Below the pieces are notes generated by a model. That model was given only the letters and a program-made list of their open reading frames with translations. It did no database searches and was not told where the DNA came from. From NCBI RefSeq assembly GCF_016863255.1, contig NZ_BOON01000011.1:1-60708 (forward strand): 60,708 bases of DNA, written 5' to 3'. A program made the translations under genes and the position numbers. Numbering within the stretch: the first letter of the stretch is position 1; the number at the start of each line of letters is the position of its first letter. The DNA is from Planosporangium mesophilum (GTDB lineage Bacteria; Actinomycetota; Actinomycetes; Mycobacteriales; Micromonosporaceae). This document shows, in pieces, positions 18,886 through 32,649 of the stretch.

Positions 18886-19851
18886 CTAGGCGCGGGGACG
18901 GGCCAGCGCGGCCGGTAGGGGGTCGGAGGCCGCCTGTGCCGCGGGTGACACGGGGCTCGACCCCTCGGCGGGCGCCGGGCGGATCGCCTCCAGGACGGCG
19001 AGGACCGCCACCCACACCACGGCGGCGCCGACCATGTGCAGCCCGACGGCGAGGACCGGCAGGTGCAGGAAGTACTGCACGAAGCCGATCACGCCTTGCC
19101 CCAGTTCGACCGCGATCAGCCAGCCGGCCGCCCGCCGGGCGCTCGTCGGGGCGCCGACGGCGCGCAGCGCGTACCACAGCGCCACGGACAGGCCCAGCAG
19201 CAGGAACACCAGGTCGGCGTGGAGCTGCGAGACCTCCTGCGGGTCCAGGCCGGTACGGTGGGCGCCCGCGTCGCCGGCGTGCGGGCCGCTGCCGGTGACC
19301 ACGGTGCCGACCGCCAGGACGGCGGCCGCGACGACCACGGTCAGCCGGGTCAGCGCGGTCAGCGGCCGGGGCAGGTCGGCGCCGGCCGGGGCGCCGCCGG
19401 CGCGGACCCAGAGCTGGTAGGCCGCCGCGATGACCGCCATGGAGGCGAGGAAGTGCAGCCCGACCAGCCACGGGTTGAGGTTGCTGAGCACCACGATGCC
19501 GCCGATCACGGCCTGGGCCGGGATCTGGGCGAGCACCAGCACCGACCACAGGGTCAGCGAGCGGTTGCGGGGCCGCTGGCAGAGGGCGGCGACCACGCAG
19601 AGGAGCGCGAGCAGCCCGACGACGAAGGTGAGCGACCGGTTGCCGAACTCGATCACGCCGTGCAGGCCCATCTGCTGAGTCGTCACGTACGAGTTCGCGG
19701 TGCAGCGGGGCCAGGTCGGGCAGCCGAGGCCGGAGCCGGTCAGCCGGACGGCGCCGCCGGTGCCGACGAGGACGATGTTGGCCACCAGGGACGCCAGGGC
19801 GAGGTGGCGCAGCAGGGACGGCGTACCGAGAAGCCGGCGGATGGAGCTCAC
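18886..19851 (-). CDS. ctaA: haem A synthase (CtaA/COX15)
   Basis: Membrane enzyme of 321 residues with about eight hydrophobic helices that oxidises haem O to haem A. The first helix is followed by the family motif GGAVRLTGSGLGCPTWPRC, with a conserved Cys pair region, and helix-borne His residues appear in GLHGVIEFGNR and LHFLASMAVIAAAY and later near LHADLVFL and LHMVGAAVVW. It is divergent from sufR, with 98 bp between them. The tail after residue 300 is Ala/Pro-rich. Its work follows that of CtaB at 16435. Confidence 0.95.
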   Translation of the reverse strand: MSSIRRLLGTPSLLRHLALASLVANIVLVGTGGAVRLTGSGLGCPTWPRCTANSYVTTQQMGLHGVIEFGNRSLTFVVGLLALLCVVAALCQRPRNRSLTLWSVLVLAQIPAQAVIGGIVVLSNLNPWLVGLHFLASMAVIAAAYQLWVRAGGAPAGADLPRPLTALTRLTVVVAAAVLAVGTVVTGSGPHAGDAGAHRTGLDPQEVSQLHADLVFLLLGLSVALWYALRAVGAPTSARRAAGWLIAVELGQGVIGFVQYFLHLPVLAVGLHMVGAAVVWVAVLAVLEAIRPAPAEGSSPVSPAAQAASDPLPAALARPRA

Positions 19852-19912
19852 CTGGCGATCGTACTGACAGTGGTGCCCGCAACCGGAGTGGCCCGGGTCA
19901 CCGGAGGTGCCG

Positions 19913-19943
19913 TTTGCGTCCGGGGAAGGAAATACGTAACACT
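19913..19943 (+). promoter_or_regulatory. putative sufR/suf operon promoter (leaderless)
   Basis: TTTGCG (19913-19918) and AACACT (19938-19943) could be -35 and -10, with a 19-nt spacer. The -10 ends 6 nt before GTG 19950, the spacing expected if transcription begins on the start codon. There is no Shine-Dalgarno before that GTG, which agrees with a leaderless message. Confidence 0.4.
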
Positions 19944-19953
19944 GGTGTTGTGA
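19939..19953 (+). promoter_or_regulatory. candidate SufR operator over the sufR start
   Basis: ACACT (19939-19943), five nt (GGTGT), TGTGA (19949-19953): this equals the ACACT-N5-TGTGA inverted repeat I recall being reported for M. tuberculosis SufR. It also contains AACAC-N2-GTGTT and TAAC-N6-GTTG, close to the cyanobacterial SufR pattern CAAC-N6-GTTG. It overlaps both the proposed -10 and the GTG start, ideal for autorepression. Confidence 0.7.
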
Positions 19954-20693
19954 AAAACGCGGCCGTACTCGCCGAGCGGACCGGAGCCCTTGACCGGGAT
20001 CCGTCCGACGGCCGTACCCGCGATCGCGTGGCCCAGCTGCTGCTGCAGTACGGGTCGGCGACCACCAACGAGCTTAGCGAGGCGCTCGGCCTGAGCTGCG
20101 CGGCCATCCGCCGCCACCTGGACGCCATGCTCGGCGACGGGCTGGTGGAGGCGCGGGAGCAGTCGGTGCGCGGCCCGCGTGGGCGGGGGAGGCCGGCCAA
20201 GGTCTTCTCGCTCACCGAGAGCGCCCGGGAGTCGTTCCCGCACGCGTACGACGGCCTTGCCACCGCCGCACTGCGCTGGATCGCCCAGCACGGCGGCCCG
20301 GCCGCGGTGAGCGCGTTCGCCACGGCCCAGCTCGCCGCACTGGAGGAGCGTTGCCGCGCCGCCATGCTGGAGGCCGGCGACGACACCCTCGCACGGGCAA
20401 AGGCGCTCGCCAGCGCGCTGACCGCCGAGGGGTACGCTGCCGGCGCGTCGACGATCGCGTCCGGCGGCCAACTCTGCCAGCACCACTGCCCGGTGGCGCA
20501 CGTGGCCGCCGAGTTCCCGCAGCTGTGCGAGGCCGAGACCCAGGTGATCTCCCGGCTCGTCGGCACGCATGTGCAGCGGCTGGCGACGATCGCCAACGGC
20601 GACGGCGTGTGTACCACACACATTCCGACGCGCCGGCCGCTCGATAAGCCGGCACAGCACCAGACAGATCACGACAAGACAACCGGATCGTGA
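19950..20693 (+). CDS. sufR: iron-sulphur-sensing repressor SufR
   Basis: Transcriptional regulator of 247 residues that controls the SUF operon according to its own [4Fe-4S] cluster. The N-terminal winged helix-turn-helix contains [18 protein letters not shown] (about residues 36-53), and the wing contains [13 protein letters not shown]. The C-terminal ligand region has Cys at about 176, 180, 193 and 221 ([27 protein letters not shown]). GTG 19950 is chosen because the operator and a -10-like box abut it; no ribosome site exists. It lies 10 nt before sufB, the first gene of the unit it regulates. Confidence 0.93.
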
Positions 20694-20703
20694 GGACCGC
20701 CCG

Positions 20704-22125
20704 ATGACCGAACAGATGATCGAGCCGATGGACCAGCTTGCCGGCCTCGGCACGTACGAGTACGGCTGGGCCGACTCCGACCTCGCCGGCGCTTCGGCGC
20801 GACGCGGCCTCGACGAGGACGTCGTTCGCGACATCTCGGCGAAGAAGAACGAGCCGGAGTGGATGCTCGACCTGCGGCTCAAGGGCCTGCGGCTGTTCGG
20901 CCGCAAGCCGATGCCGGCCTGGGGCGCGGACCTGTCCGGGATCGACTTCGACAACATCAAGTACTTCGTCCGCTCGACCGAGAAGCAGGCGGCGAGCTGG
21001 GACGACCTGCCCGCGGACATCAAGAACACCTACGACAAGCTGGGCATCCCGGAGGCCGAGAAGCAGCGGCTGATCGCGGGTGTCGCGGCGCAGTACGAGT
21101 CCGAGGTCGTCTACCACAAGATCAACGAGGAGCTGGAGCGGCAGGGCGTCCTCTTCCTCGACACCGACACGGCGCTCAAGGAGCACCCGGAGCTCTTCAA
21201 GGAGTACTTCGGCACCGTGATCCCGGTCGGTGACAACAAGTTCGCCTCGCTCAACACCTCGGTGTGGTCGGGTGGCTCGTTCATCTACGTGCCGAAGGGC
21301 GTGCACGTGGAGATCCCGCTGCAGGCGTACTTCCGGATCAACACCGAGAACATGGGCCAGTTCGAGCGGACCCTGATCATCGTCGACGAGGGCGCGTACG
21401 TGCACTACGTCGAGGGCTGCACCGCGCCGATCTACTCGTCGGACTCGCTGCACTCCGCGGTCGTCGAGATCATCGTCAAGAAGAACGCCCGGTGCCGGTA
21501 CACGACGATCCAGAACTGGTCGAACAACGTGTACAACCTGGTCACCAAGCGCGCCGTCTGCTCCGAGGGCGCGACCATGGAGTGGATCGACGGCAACCTC
21601 GGCTCCAAGGTGACCATGAAGTACCCGGCCGTCTACATGTACGGCGAGCACGCCAAGGGCGAGGTCCTGTCGGTCGCGATGGCCGGCGAGGGCCAGCACC
21701 AGGACGCCGGCGCCAAGATGGTGCACGCCGCGCCGCACACCTCCTCGAGCATCATCTCCAAGTCGATCGCCCGGGGTGGCGGCCGCACCAGCTACCGGGG
21801 CCTGGTCCAGGTCCTGGAGGGCTCGCACCACTCGAAGTCGACCGTCAAGTGCGACGCGCTGCTGGTCGACACGATCTCCCGCTCCGACACGTACCCGTAC
21901 GTGGACGTGCGTGAGGACGACGTCGCGATGGGCCACGAGGCGACCGTCTCCAAGATCAGTGATGACCAGCTCTTCTACCTGATGAGCCGGGGCATGACCG
22001 AGGACGAGGCCATGGCGATGATCGTGCGCGGCTTCATCGAGCCGATCGCCAAGGAGCTCCCGATGGAGTACGCGCTCGAGCTCAACCGACTCATCGAACT
22101 GCAGATGGAGGGGGCGGTCGGCTAA
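20704..22125 (+). CDS. sufB: Fe-S cluster assembly protein SufB
   Basis: Scaffold protein of 473 residues, part of the SufBC2D complex on which iron-sulphur clusters are built. The SufB/D beta-helix is visible with [20 protein letters not shown], a [14 protein letters not shown] stretch carrying a conserved Cys, and [17 protein letters not shown]. The C-terminal helical part has [19 protein letters not shown], also seen in sufD. ATG 20704 has GAGG about 8 nt before it. A 48-nt gap separates it from sufD. Confidence 0.97.
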
Positions 22126-22173: not shown

Positions 22174-23319
22174 ATGACCCAGTCCGTCGCGCCGCCGAAG
22201 ACCAAGTCCCAGGCGTTGCGCTCCTACGATGTTGCCGATTTCCCGGCGCTCACCGGCCGGGAGGAGGAGTGGCGGTTCACGCCGCTCAAGCGGCTGCGCG
22301 GCCTCGCGACCGCGACCGGCGGCACCGCCACCGGTCCGGCGCCCAAGCACGAGTACGGGCAGTTGCCTGCCGGCGTCAGCGTCTCCACCGTGGATCGCGA
22401 GGACCCCCGGGTCGGTTCGCTGCTGACCCCGTTCGACCGGATCAGCGCGCTGGCCTACGGCGCCGCCGACTCCGCCCTGCTGGTCAGCGTCGCGCGCGGC
22501 GCCACGCCGGAGCAGGCGGCCGTGATCCGCCTGGTCGGCGGTGGCGGCGAGGGCGTGTCGTTCGGGCACACCTTCGTCGAGGTCGGCCCGCTGGCCGAGG
22601 CGACCCTGGTGCTGGAGCAGACCGGCTCGACCACCCTCGCGGACAACATCGAGGTGTCGGTCGGCGACGGTGCCCGGCTGGTCTTCGTGACCGTGGCCGA
22701 CTGGGCGCCCGACGCGGTACAGGCCCAGCACGTCCGGTTCCGGCTGGGCCGCGACGCCAAGGTGACCCACGTCCAGGTGACGCTCGGCGGTGACCTGGTC
22801 CGCCAGTTCACCAGCGTCGAGTACGGCGACCGGGGCGGCGACTGCGAGGCGTACGGCCTGTACTTCGCCGACTCCGGCCAGCACCTGGAGCACCGGCTGC
22901 TGGTCGACCACGCGGTGCCGGACTGCCGCAGCTACGTCGCGTACCGCGGCGCGCTGCAGGGCAAGGAGGCGCACACGGTCTGGGTCGGCGACGTGCTGAT
23001 CCGGGCCGAGGCCACCGGCACCGACACGTACGAGGTCAACCGCAACCTGGTCCTGACCGACGGGGCTCGGGCGGACTCGGTACCGAACCTGGAGATCGAG
23101 ACCGGTGAGGTCGCCGGCGCCGGACACGCCAGCGCCACCGGAAGGTTCGACGACGAGCAGCTGTTCTACCTGATGGCCCGGGGCATCCCGGCCGAGGAGG
23201 CGCGCAAGCTGGTCGTCCGCGGCTTCTTCAACGAGCTGCTCGGCAAGATCCCGGTCGAGGACCTGCGGGAGCGCCTGGCCGACACGATCGAGGCGCGGCT
23301 GGCAGAGGTGGATCAGTGA
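22174..23319 (+). CDS. sufD: Fe-S cluster assembly protein SufD
   Basis: Protein of 381 residues, the SufB paralogue of the SufBC2D scaffold. The beta-helix core includes LEHRLLVDHAVPDCRSY with the His that takes part in cluster assembly. The C-terminus has LFYLMARGIPAEEARKLVV, mirroring SufB. AGAAGG lies 9 nt before ATG 22174. Its stop overlaps the GTG of the Rieske gene (GTGA). Confidence 0.96.
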   Translation: MTQSVAPPKTKSQALRSYDVADFPALTGREEEWRFTPLKRLRGLATATGGTATGPAPKHEYGQLPAGVSVSTVDREDPRVGSLLTPFDRISALAYGAADSALLVSVARGATPEQAAVIRLVGGGGEGVSFGHTFVEVGPLAEATLVLEQTGSTTLADNIEVSVGDGARLVFVTVADWAPDAVQAQHVRFRLGRDAKVTHVQVTLGGDLVRQFTSVEYGDRGGDCEAYGLYFADSGQHLEHRLLVDHAVPDCRSYVAYRGALQGKEAHTVWVGDVLIRAEATGTDTYEVNRNLVLTDGARADSVPNLEIETGEVAGAGHASATGRFDDEQLFYLMARGIPAEEARKLVVRGFFNELLGKIPVEDLRERLADTIEARLAEVDQ

Positions 23320-23639
23320 CGTCGGTGCGGATCTGTTCCGTCGACGACATCGCCAAGGGCGAGGTCATCGCGGTGACGGTCGACGACACCCCGCTGGCGG
23401 TGGTGCACTGCGAGGACGGCAGCTTCCACGCCGTCCACGACGAGTGCTCGCACGCGGCGATCCCGCTGTCCGAGGGCGAGGTCGACGGCTGCACGCTCGA
23501 GTGCTGGCTGCACGGCTCGCGCTTCGACCTGCGCACCGGCAAGCCGACCGGGCCACCGGCGACCGAGCCCGTACCCGTCTACTCCGTCGAGGTCCGCGAC
23601 GGCGACATCTACGTGAACCTGAGCGAGGAGAGCAAGTGA
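23316..23639 (+). CDS. Rieske-type [2Fe-2S] ferredoxin of the suf operon
   Basis: Protein of 107 residues with the full Rieske ligand set: C44-S-H46 in DECSHAAIPL and C63-x2-H66 in LECWLHGSRFD. These bind a [2Fe-2S] cluster through two Cys and two His. It resembles the ferredoxin subunits of aromatic dioxygenases. It is a usual member of actinobacterial suf operons, between sufD and sufC, where an electron-donor role is assumed but not shown. Both ends overlap neighbours by 4 nt. Confidence 0.93.
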   Translation: MTSVRICSVDDIAKGEVIAVTVDDTPLAVVHCEDGSFHAVHDECSHAAIPLSEGEVDGCTLECWLHGSRFDLRTGKPTGPPATEPVPVYSVEVRDGDIYVNLSEESK

Positions 23640-24409
23640 GCACCCTGGAGATCCGCGACCTGCAGGTCTCGGTCAAGCTGCCCGACGGCGAGCTGAAGCC
23701 GATCCTGGCCGGGGTCAACCTGACCGTACGGTCCGGCGAGACGCACGCGATCATGGGCCCCAACGGCTCGGGCAAGTCGACGCTCGCGTACTCGATCGCC
23801 GGGCACCCCAAGTACGAGATCACCGGCGGCTCGGTGACGCTCGACGGCGAGGACGTCCTCGCGATGACCGTCGACGAGCGCGCCCGCGCCGGCCTGTTCC
23901 TGGCGATGCAGTACCCGGTCGAGGTGCCGGGTGTGTCGGTGGCGAACTTCCTGCGTACCGCGAAGACCGCCATCGACGGCGAGGCGCCGAAGCTGCGCAC
24001 CTGGAGCAAGGAGCTCAAGGGCGCGATGGAGCGGCTGCACATGGACCCGGCGTTCGCCCAGCGCAACGTCAACGAGGGCTTCTCCGGCGGCGAGAAGAAG
24101 CGGCACGAGATCGTGCAGCTCGAGCTGCTCAAGCCGAAGATCGCCATCCTGGACGAGACCGACTCCGGCCTCGACGTCGACGCGCTGCGCATCGTTAGCG
24201 AGGGCGTCAACCGGGTACGCGACACCGGCGACACCGGCATGCTCCTGATCACGCACTACACGCGGATCCTGCGGTACGTGAAGCCGGACTTCGTGCACGT
24301 CTTCGTCGCCGGCCGGATCGTCGAGGAAGGCGGTCCCGAACTGGCCGAGAAGCTGGAAGAGGAAGGCTACGAGCGGTACCTCGCCGGCGCCGGCCCCGCG
24401 AACGCATAG
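23636..24409 (+). CDS. sufC: Fe-S cluster assembly ATPase SufC
   Basis: ABC-type ATPase of 257 residues that drives conformational change of SufB-SufD. Walker A GPNGSGKST near residue 41, signature FSGGEKKRHEI near 148 and the Walker B region KIAILDETDSGLDVDAL are intact. ETDSGLD is the SufC form. GTG 23636 overlaps the Rieske stop. It is 12 nt before sufS. Confidence 0.97.
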   Translation: MSTLEIRDLQVSVKLPDGELKPILAGVNLTVRSGETHAIMGPNGSGKSTLAYSIAGHPKYEITGGSVTLDGEDVLAMTVDERARAGLFLAMQYPVEVPGVSVANFLRTAKTAIDGEAPKLRTWSKELKGAMERLHMDPAFAQRNVNEGFSGGEKKRHEIVQLELLKPKIAILDETDSGLDVDALRIVSEGVNRVRDTGDTGMLLITHYTRILRYVKPDFVHVFVAGRIVEEGGPELAEKLEEEGYERYLAGAGPANA

Positions 24410-24421
24410 GACGGAGTTTCG

Positions 24422-25681
24422 ATGACGGCCACCCTCCCGATGTACGACGTCCAGGCCGTGCGCGCCGACTTCCCGATCCTGGCGCGCCAGGTCAACGGCG
24501 CGCCGCTGGTCTACCTGGACTCGGCGGCCACGTCCCAGAAGCCGCGCCAGGTCCTGGACGCGCTGCGTGAGCACTACGAGCAGCGCAACGCCAACGTGTC
24601 CCGCTCGGTGCACGCGCTGGGCACGGAGGCCACCGAGGCGTACGAGGGTGCCCGGGCCAGGGTGGCCGCCTTCATCGGGGCGGCCACGGCGGAGGAGGTC
24701 GTCTTCACGAAGAACTCCACCGAGGCGATCAACCTGCTGGCGCACGCGTTCTCGGAGCGCAGCATCGACCCGAGGTTCCGGCTGGGCCCCGGCGACGAGA
24801 TCGTGATCTCCGAGATGGAGCACCACTCGAACATCCTGCCGTGGCAGCTGCTGTGCGAGCGTACCGGCGCGACCCTGCGCTGGTTCGGCCTCACAGATGA
24901 CGGCCGGCTCGACGAGTCCGACCTCGACGCGCTGGTCAACGAGCGGACCAAGCTGGTGTCGCTGGTGCACGTGTCCAACATCCTGGGCACGGTCAACGAG
25001 ACCGCGCGGATCGTCGCGCGGGCGCACCAGGTCGGCGCGCTGGTGATGCTGGACGCGTCGCAGTCCGTACCGCACCTGCCCGTCTCGGTGTCCGAGCTCG
25101 GGGTGGACTTCATCGCCTTCACCGGGCACAAGATGTGCGGGCCCACCGGCATCGGCGCGCTCTGGGGCCGGTACGAGCTGCTGCTGGCGATGCCGCCGTT
25201 CCTGGGCGGCGGCTCGATGATCGAGACCGTCACGATGCAACGGTCGACGTACGCGCTGCCGCCGATGAAGTTCGAGGCGGGCACCCCGCCGATCGCCGAG
25301 GCGGTCGGGCTGGGCGCGGCCGTGGACTACCTGTCGGCGGTCGGTATGGAGGCCATCCACCAGCACGAGGTGGACCTCGCCGGGTACGCGCTCGGCGCCC
25401 TGGCGACAGTGCCGGACCTGCGGGTCATCGGTCCCCAGAAGACCGAGGGCCGGGGCGGGACGATCTCCTTCGCGCTCGGGGACATCCACCCGCACGACGT
25501 CGGGCAGATCCTCGACAACGAGGGTGTCGAGGTACGCGCCGGCCACCACTGCGCCCGCCCGGTCTGCGCCCGGTACGGCGTACCGGCCACCACCCGCGCC
25601 TCGTTCTACCTGTACACGACCACCGACGAGATCGACGCGATGGTGCGCGCCTTGGAGAAGGCGCGGAAGGTGTTCGGGTGA
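24422..25681 (+). CDS. sufS: cysteine desulphurase SufS
   Basis: PLP enzyme of 419 residues that takes sulphur from cysteine as a persulphide. Visible are LDSAATSQKP at the N-terminus, the PLP-site block ISEMEHHSNILPW, the Schiff-base Lys in DFIAFTGHKMCGPTG, and the active Cys in VRAGHHCARPVCARYG. This is the group II (SufS) type, which works with a SufU or SufE acceptor. GGACGGAG lies before ATG 24422. Its stop overlaps sufU. Confidence 0.97.
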   Translation: MTATLPMYDVQAVRADFPILARQVNGAPLVYLDSAATSQKPRQVLDALREHYEQRNANVSRSVHALGTEATEAYEGARARVAAFIGAATAEEVVFTKNSTEAINLLAHAFSERSIDPRFRLGPGDEIVISEMEHHSNILPWQLLCERTGATLRWFGLTDDGRLDESDLDALVNERTKLVSLVHVSNILGTVNETARIVARAHQVGALVMLDASQSVPHLPVSVSELGVDFIAFTGHKMCGPTGIGALWGRYELLLAMPPFLGGGSMIETVTMQRSTYALPPMKFEAGTPPIAEAVGLGAAVDYLSAVGMEAIHQHEVDLAGYALGALATVPDLRVIGPQKTEGRGGTISFALGDIHPHDVGQILDNEGVEVRAGHHCARPVCARYGVPATTRASFYLYTTTDEIDAMVRALEKARKVFG

Positions 25682-31777: not shown

Positions 31778-32649
31778 CCGGGCGCGAGAGCTCGAACGCG
31801 GCTCATTTTCACGGAGTACGGCTAGATCGTGAAGGGCCGGTCGCAACGGTCACGTTGTGCCGGCCCGAGGTCCTCAACGCGCAGACCCCCGCCATGTGGG
31901 CGGCGCTCCGCGATATCGCTCGAGAATTGCCGGGCGACGTTCGTGTCGTGGTGGTTCGCGGTGAGGGAAGAGCATTTTCGGCGGGTCTCGACCTGTCGGT
32001 GGCCGGAGCGCTTACGTCGGGGGGCGGGGCGTCGGGGGGCACGGCCACGGACGGTGCCGAGACCGTTGACGGCGCTGCTGGCGCCGGTGAACCACCGGCG
32101 CCCAGCGGCAGTTTTGCGGACCTCGTGCGCCTTCCTCCGGAACGCGCGCAGGACCGGATCGCCTTCTACCAGGAGGGCTTCTCCTGGCTGCGCCGCCCCG
32201 ATCTGATCACGATCGCCGCGGTGCACGGGCACGCCATCGGCGCGGGCTTCCAGCTTGCGCTGGCGTGTGACTTCCGCATCGTCAGCGACGACGCGTCGTT
32301 TTCGATGGCCGAGGTGAAGCTCGGCCTCGTTCCCGACCTCACCGGCTCGAAGCGGCTGGTGGAGCTGGTCGGGTACGCCCGGGCGCTGGAGATCTGCGTG
32401 ACCGGACGGCGGGTGCCGGCGGCCGAGGCCGAGCGCATCGGCCTGGCCAACCTGGTCGTCGGGCGCGCCGACCTCGACGGGGCGGTAGCCGATCTCACCG
32501 CGGCCGTCCTGGCCGGTCCGCGCGACGCGGTGGTCGAGATCAAGGCCCTCATCGCCGCGGCCGCCGGGCGGGACTTCGCCGCTCAGGAGGCGGCCGAGCG
32601 GGCCGCGCAGATCCGCCGCCTACGCGATCTTGCCGGAGTCGGCGAGTAA
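31774..32649 (+). CDS. enoyl-CoA hydratase/isomerase (crotonase) family protein
   Basis: Protein of 291 residues with the crotonase fold. CoA/oxyanion segments are GEGRAFSAGLDLSVAG and VHGHAIGAGFQLALACDFR. The hydratase Glu that normally stands in the GGCELA motif is Gln here (GFQLAL), while the second Glu is kept in MAEVKLGLVPD. This favours an isomerase or another crotonase reaction over simple hydration. Residues about 80-114 are a Gly/Ala/Thr/Pro-rich insert between the two oxyanion segments, unusual in length. The start is GTG 31774 overlapping the HTH stop. It corresponds in position to echA12 (Rv1472). Confidence 0.88.
   Translation: MTGRESSNAAHFHGVRLDREGPVATVTLCRPEVLNAQTPAMWAALRDIARELPGDVRVVVVRGEGRAFSAGLDLSVAGALTSGGGASGGTATDGAETVDGAAGAGEPPAPSGSFADLVRLPPERAQDRIAFYQEGFSWLRRPDLITIAAVHGHAIGAGFQLALACDFRIVSDDASFSMAEVKLGLVPDLTGSKRLVELVGYARALEICVTGRRVPAAEAERIGLANLVVGRADLDGAVADLTAAVLAGPRDAVVEIKALIAAAAGRDFAAQEAAERAAQIRRLRDLAGVGE

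Follow-up and report, generated by a model that had tools for sequence, protein, structure and literature searches.

In the 60,708-nucleotide stretch of Planosporangium mesophilum DNA analyzed here (the window), an apparently leaderless sufR gene has a SufR-type operator lying across its GTG start codon, the point where transcription is predicted to start, and the −10 element. This operator is most likely the site where SufR binds to silence its own gene. We consider it very probable that this autoregulatory operator is a dyad of about 28 bp (19930 to 19957, centered on 19943.5) that takes in the first three codons together with +1 and the −10 element, and that selection on it sets both the GTG and codon 2. 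For the class as a whole, it is likely, if with somewhat less assurance, that GTG and Lys2 are by-products of a SufR site that is about 28 bp long and has its right arm in codons 2 and 3, and that lineages with a led sufR kept the arm and dropped GTG and, where this was read, Lys2. We infer the leaderless start and the binding of SufR from the sequence and from relatives.

The sufR locus and its promoter

The gene at 19950 to 20693 (forward strand, 247 amino acids) looks like a sufR heading a suf operon. The N terminus of its product matches an ArsR-type winged helix (PF01022, 30.4 bits versus 22), and cysteines 176, 180, 193, and 221 have the spacing (4, 13, and 28) of those in C. glutamicum SufR. 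The protein scores below the cutoff of the cyanobacterial SufR equivalog TIGR02702 (68.9 bits, E of 4.8e-19, versus 178.8); by sequence, it is related to that group, not a member of it. A search by sequence for a relative of solved structure found none at an E of 0.01. With sufR as first gene, the operon continues on the same strand with sufB (20704 to 22125; TIGR01980, 727 bits versus a cutoff of 346.4), behind a Shine-Dalgarno-like GAGGA read from the sequence (20692 to 20696), sufD (22174 to 23319; TIGR01981, 248.3 bits versus a cutoff of 222), a Rieske-type ferredoxin gene (23316 to 23639; PF00355, 77.5 bits versus 20.3), a reading frame at 23444 to 24409 that, judging its translation by eye, holds a SufC-like ATPase with a true start later than 23444, and sufS (24422 to 25681; TIGR01979, 587.6 bits versus a cutoff of 475.1).

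A divergent COX15/CtaA-like gene lies 98 bp from sufR on the reverse strand (18886 to 19851; PF02628, 77.1 bits versus 29.9). In the same region, upstream of the −35 element, is an (A/G)TCACCGG-like element at 19895 to 19904 (about −53). It was seen in 79 of the 87 loci of the Micromonosporaceae set, which includes the best 80 of 249 relatives, at −53 in 63 loci and at −52 in 14, and could belong either to another regulator or to the divergent ctaA-like gene. Boxes resembling those of IdeR/DmdR precede the last G of the operator by about 79 to 102 bp in 12 of 209 loci (L155, L157, L172, L200, L152, L181, L090, L092, L093, L100, L175, and L184; at −91 in 7 of the 12), in a scan allowing up to 5 mismatches of 19, run without a chance control, and using what we take to be the consensus of these boxes.

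A preliminary description of this DNA had placed the repeat ACACT-GGTGT-TGTGA at 19939 to 19953, overlapping the GTG at 19950 to 19952, with a −10-like AACACT (19938 to 19943) ending 6 nt ahead of the GTG and TAAC-N6-GTTG in the same bases (19937 to 19950). All of these are where it put them. It had also reported no ribosome site for this GTG, and we find none at the usual distance; the purine run upstream, GGGGAAGGAA, is some 18 nt away. With G19950 taken as +1, A19939 and T19943 stand at −11 and −7, where a −10 element has its two key bases (A and T, respectively). The window site carries (C/T/G)AAC-N6-GTTG over the −10 element and +1 of sufR, and its last G would be at once the transcription start and the first base of the start codon. 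Its core is a perfect dyad, AACAC-TG-GTGTT (that is, AAC-N6-GTT), at 19938 to 19949, the axis of which lies 2.5 bp upstream of the axis of ACACT-N5-TGTGA. On the left is the A/T tract AAATA (19930 to 19934; −20 to −16); on the right, within codons 2 and 3, AAAAA (19953 to 19957) mirrors it about 19943.5.

By itself, the repeat is a modest surprise, and conservation carries the weight. Exact ACACT-N5-TGTGA occurs once in the window, compared to 0.04 expected (at least one in 4 of 100 shuffles); with 2 mismatches it is useless for scanning, with 7 found in the window and 21 expected. TAAC-N6-GTTG has 3 matches in the window where 1.05 are expected; apart from the sufR site, these are a single palindrome counted on both strands. 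That palindrome (31844 to 31857) is a perfect CAACG-N4-CGTTG of the SufR-core type, distant from suf. A wide pattern with both A/T tracts, derived from the relatives' loci, has a single match in the window when up to 1 mismatch is allowed (0.00 expected). In the whole genome it has 1 exact match, and 2 more at 2 mismatches equal the 2 of the reversed control; it finds no further SufR targets in the genome above that control. The sole other YAACRYTKSYGTTG in the genome (G000 C2:74119-74132) lies in overlapping long reading frames, was read as coding, lacks the A/T tracts, and was set aside as a chance match.

Conservation of the operator among relatives

A sufR gene was found in all 61 genomes drawn from the order and in 77 of 78 drawn from the class; the sole genome of that draw lacking a SufR match at the threshold (G127) has a listed completeness of 100. 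A Mycobacteriaceae-like draw of 91 genomes gave 40 loci that were read. The 80 loci from named genomes are the best 80 of 249 relatives, their record titles naming MAGs or genera that we take to be Micromonosporaceae. Removal of three duplicates left 282 distinct loci out of 285; L002, L112, L113, and L146 were dropped ahead of the 212-locus analysis, and one identical row was dropped ahead of the 122-locus and gene-body analyses. Because the loci are related, counts of them are not independent.

Aligning the sufR upstream regions of relatives, a check proposed in the preliminary description, showed that the region of the repeat is conserved, in the form of a wider dyad. Of 212 loci, among them that of the window and the best 80 of 249 relatives, 167 carry BAAC-N6-GTTG with no more than 1 mismatch and have an in-frame GTG beginning on its last G. 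These are 85 of the 87 loci of the Micromonosporaceae set, which holds those best 80, and 82 of the 125 outside it. The remaining 45 of the 212 mostly have variants such as ACAC or CATAC at the same place. In the 82 class matches outside the family, the near-fixed columns are A/T at −20 to −17, A at −11, GTT at −3 to −1 (82, 81, and 82 of 82), and A/T at +4 to +6, the GTT and GTG columns being partly demanded by the search pattern; positions −13, −12, and −8 are variable. A stands at −11 in all 82 class matches and in all 85 Micromonosporaceae matches, and T stands at −7 in 69 and 78, respectively, the family figures again including the best 80 of 249 relatives. In these same 85 family matches, drawn largely from that best 80, each base of the −35-like TTTGC (19913 to 19917 in the window) is present 83 to 85 times; this element is weak outside the family. 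Position −9 is G in 81 of the 85 (best 80 of 249 relatives included), and ACACT is therefore the exception in Micromonosporaceae.

ACACT-N5-TGTGA, which is reportedly the inverted repeat of M. tuberculosis SufR, thus does not survive as the operator unit. ACACT is rare in Micromonosporaceae, and TGTGA is missing at its place in all 45 loci with a moved start, described below; we rejected it as a conserved unit and kept the wider dyad W5-N3-(A/C)AC-N6-GTTG-N2-W4/5. The "TGTGA" half is, as read from the aligned loci, mostly start codon, which suggests that, in the repeat attributed to the M. tuberculosis protein, this half is likewise mostly start codon. The string ACACT was not met in our literature search on the SufR repeat.

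The A/T tracts are sharply bounded. Over 122 loci outside Micromonosporaceae, the A/T fraction at −16 to −20 is 0.92, 1.00, 1.00, 1.00, and 0.99, and at the mirror positions +3 to +7 it is 0.85, 1.00, 1.00, 0.99, and 0.69; it is 0.16 and 0.06 just outside the tracts and 0.13 and 0.00 just inside (for the left tract, 0.16 at −21 and 0.13 at −15). The two tracts are mirror images about the AAC-N6-GTT axis. They may well be the outer arms of a single operator that the wings of a SufR dimer perhaps contact, and SufR would then read the A/T tract in codons 2 and 3.

An in-frame start codon lies exactly at the operator's end in 234 of the 282 distinct loci, 232 with GTG and 2 with ATG. In L300 and L301, both from one genus, an ATG start goes with an operator ending in GTTA, so that the overlap is kept with a different start codon and the operator's last G is therefore dispensable. 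Low scores, against a position matrix built from part of the same loci that it scored, went to L212, L213, and L215 (full matrix) and to L266 and L268 (core). Among 12 homologous loci read in 11 genomes from outside the class, none has the operator core at a start codon. Between 400 bp upstream and 150 bp into the match, 2 of the 12 (L273 and L274) have a loose AAC-N6-GTT core followed, as judged by eye, by A/T at +3 to +7 (AAAAT and TAATT), with no start codon at its end. This pattern would fit an older operator without the start-codon overlap.

Operator bases as codons

The idea that operator bases also encode the first codons of SufR, tying the start of the protein to the operator, is borne out in relatives. 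Among the 234 loci with the overlap, 232 start with GTG and 230 have AAA, GAA, or CAA as codon 2 (AAA 208, GAA 16, CAA 6, AAT 3, and TAT 1); AAG, GAG, and CAG are found there in none. In the gene bodies, with a mean of 74% G+C, AAA makes up 32 of 309 Lys codons, GAA 325 of 2,794 Glu codons, and CAA 103 of 1,513 Gln codons. Residue 2 has an entropy of 0.67 bits, residue 3 one of 2.5, and those beyond it about 3 and more; counted up to the residue that aligns with residue 26 of the query, the N-terminal tail is 9 to 55 codons long. Most likely, then, the operator rather than the protein sets the GTG start and residue 2: operator and reading frame share bases, and selection on the operator would therefore fix GTG and a codon 2 of AAA, seldom GAA or CAA. 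The overlap exists because a leaderless gene has its repressor at −10/+1, and its consequence is evolutionary, with start codon and residue 2 apparently dictated by the operator.

Natural controls are provided by 45 loci in which the start codon has left the operator: 31 of genus g61, 11 (L289 to L299) from three genera of one further family, L213 and L267 of f17, and L212, counted here though it is without a convincing operator and its scored site is doubtful. L094 (frame unclear) and L266 and L268 (low core score) were excluded. Because these loci come from six genera, partly from groups that were searched deliberately, they are neither independent nor a measure of frequency. With the operator sites placed independently of the right flank, none of the 45 loci has the GTG, and all 45 have A/T at each of the positions +3 to +6, which are non-coding there or out of frame with a start; GTT at −3 to −1 persists (G in 44, T in 45, and T in 43). 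Position +3 is T in 25 of the 45, and so it is A/T-richness that was kept, not the AAA codon. In g61, where 39 of 40 genomes matched and 31 distinct loci were read, the operator ends in GTTG-TC followed by the A/T tract. All 31 keep GTTG, and all 31 have C as the last base of what was the GTG. The gene starts there, picked by an ad hoc Shine-Dalgarno rule, lie 38 to 52 nt downstream of the operator behind purine-rich Shine-Dalgarno-like sites and in any frame relative to it (12, 10, and 9 loci); 7 of 31 are ATG, and Lys is at residue 2 in 0 of 31.

These loci bear on a different account of the right tract, in which the operator ends at GTTG and A/T-rich codons 2 and 3 serve promoter escape, by way of an A/T-rich initial transcript, or leaderless translation, by way of an unstructured, A-rich start. 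The tract does hold its distance to +1, with a leader or without, just as it holds that to the operator, and may therefore also play a part in early transcription. However, leaderless translation cannot account for a tract retained in 45 of 45 loci that start elsewhere, and the left tract mirrors the right one about the operator axis. In addition, AAA is codon 2 in 0 of 39 leaderless candidates (20 starting with ATG and 19 with GTG) from about 460 kb of this genome, a rough control in which frames were chosen by codon composition and starts by TANNNT at 6 or 7 nt. We regard this account as unlikely and favor an operator that includes the right tract.

Two further readings concern the start and the site itself. 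If sufR were led, transcription would begin further upstream, and the purine run (19922 to 19931) or TTG 19914 would serve translation. The in-frame ATG, GTG, or TTG codons within 19860 to 20069 are TTG 19914, GTG 19950, and GTG 20028, and the 90 nt before GTG 19950 have no in-frame stop; moreover, PMC6034842 refers to a genome-wide mapping in which M. tuberculosis sufR has a 120-bp leader. The mapping done in that study itself disagrees, placing the transcription start at the start codon without a leader. The spacing of about 18 nt is too long for GTG 19950, and the purine run is not conserved (−28 to −22 are mixed), whereas the A at −11, the T at −7, and the GTG are. A led sufR in the window thus seems highly improbable. 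Least probable of all is that the conserved block is promoter and start codon alone, with SufR acting elsewhere. SufR binding at the window site is indeed argued from relatives, but GTT at −3 to −1 and C at −10 hardly ever vary, at positions for which a promoter needs no specific base, GTT persists after the start codon leaves, and S. avermitilis SufR binds this very repeat, as quoted in PMC11995493.

Mechanism and comparison with known systems

On this reading, a cluster-bearing SufR dimer would occupy about −20 to +7 and exclude RNA polymerase, and loss of the Fe-S cluster would release SufR and allow the suf operon to be transcribed. sufR would be translated from the 5′-terminal GTG, and sufB from its own ribosome site. 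The preliminary description had SufR blocking promoter and start codon together. Its placement over the −10 element, the predicted +1, and the GTG stands, as judged from the sequence and from relatives; a start-codon block as a separate effect does not. Because SufR binds DNA, covering the start codon would be part of the transcription block and would have no separate effect on translation. For the window, the sequence, conservation, wobble bias, and fate of the bases after the start moved come from our analysis, and binding, repression, cluster dependence, and the transcription start come from relatives. In M. tuberculosis, holo-SufR represses and cluster loss derepresses, and in S. peucetius inactivation of sufR raises suf expression, according to PMC9045647, PMC10848736, and PMC12979805, taken as a group.

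In the literature we searched, we found no description of a class-wide coding constraint or of its release in led genes; the primary studies (Anand 2021 and Cheng 2020) were outside the reach of that search, and we do not claim that either is absent from print. If the constraint is real, the N terminus conserved in this protein would be dictated by the DNA specificity of that same protein. It would be a case in which a regulatory site limits coding sequence, and the loci where the two have separated serve as natural controls. In practice, the sufR operator, transcription start, and start codon can be annotated jointly, and caution is advisable before reading the N-terminal "MK" of SufR as functional protein sequence.

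The arrangement is an instance of a known promoter-operator arrangement. SufR of Synechocystis is a winged-helix Fe-S repressor of a suf operon, as the window SufR is predicted to be, and cyanobacterial SufR has the same core repeat. Lambda cI and tetR of Tn1721 are self-regulators with leaderless mRNAs. So is crtR of C. glutamicum, according to PMC5401885. All three resemble sufR in having an operator near a leaderless regulator start; their protein families differ.

Among SufR proteins, the closest description is that of S. avermitilis, where the operator (Cheng et al. 2020, as quoted in PMC11995493) is CAAC-N6-GTTG, its first half over the −10 element AACAAT and its last G the transcription start. 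The window site has the same register, with TAAC-N6-GTTG and AACACT at the same place as AACAAT; it differs in the outer C, which is T, and in its core, ACTGGT. C. glutamicum SufR, with cysteines presumably at 171, 175, 188, and 216, has GAAC-N6-GTTG over the main promoter. Unlike the window gene, C. glutamicum sufR has three transcription starts and a native ribosome-binding site, as described in the same source (PMC11995493), and its start codon is therefore away from the operator. M. tuberculosis Rv1460 is, according to PMC6034842, a leaderless, self-repressed sufR heading suf, with a led sufB (Rv1461), and a ChIP-seq site cited there lies 20 bp upstream of the start codon. The window sufR, compared to Rv1460 by description, is alike in its predicted leaderless start and its place at the head of suf. 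A leaderless sufR and an operator over −10/+1, reported apart in these systems, are found here in one register in most of the sampled loci.
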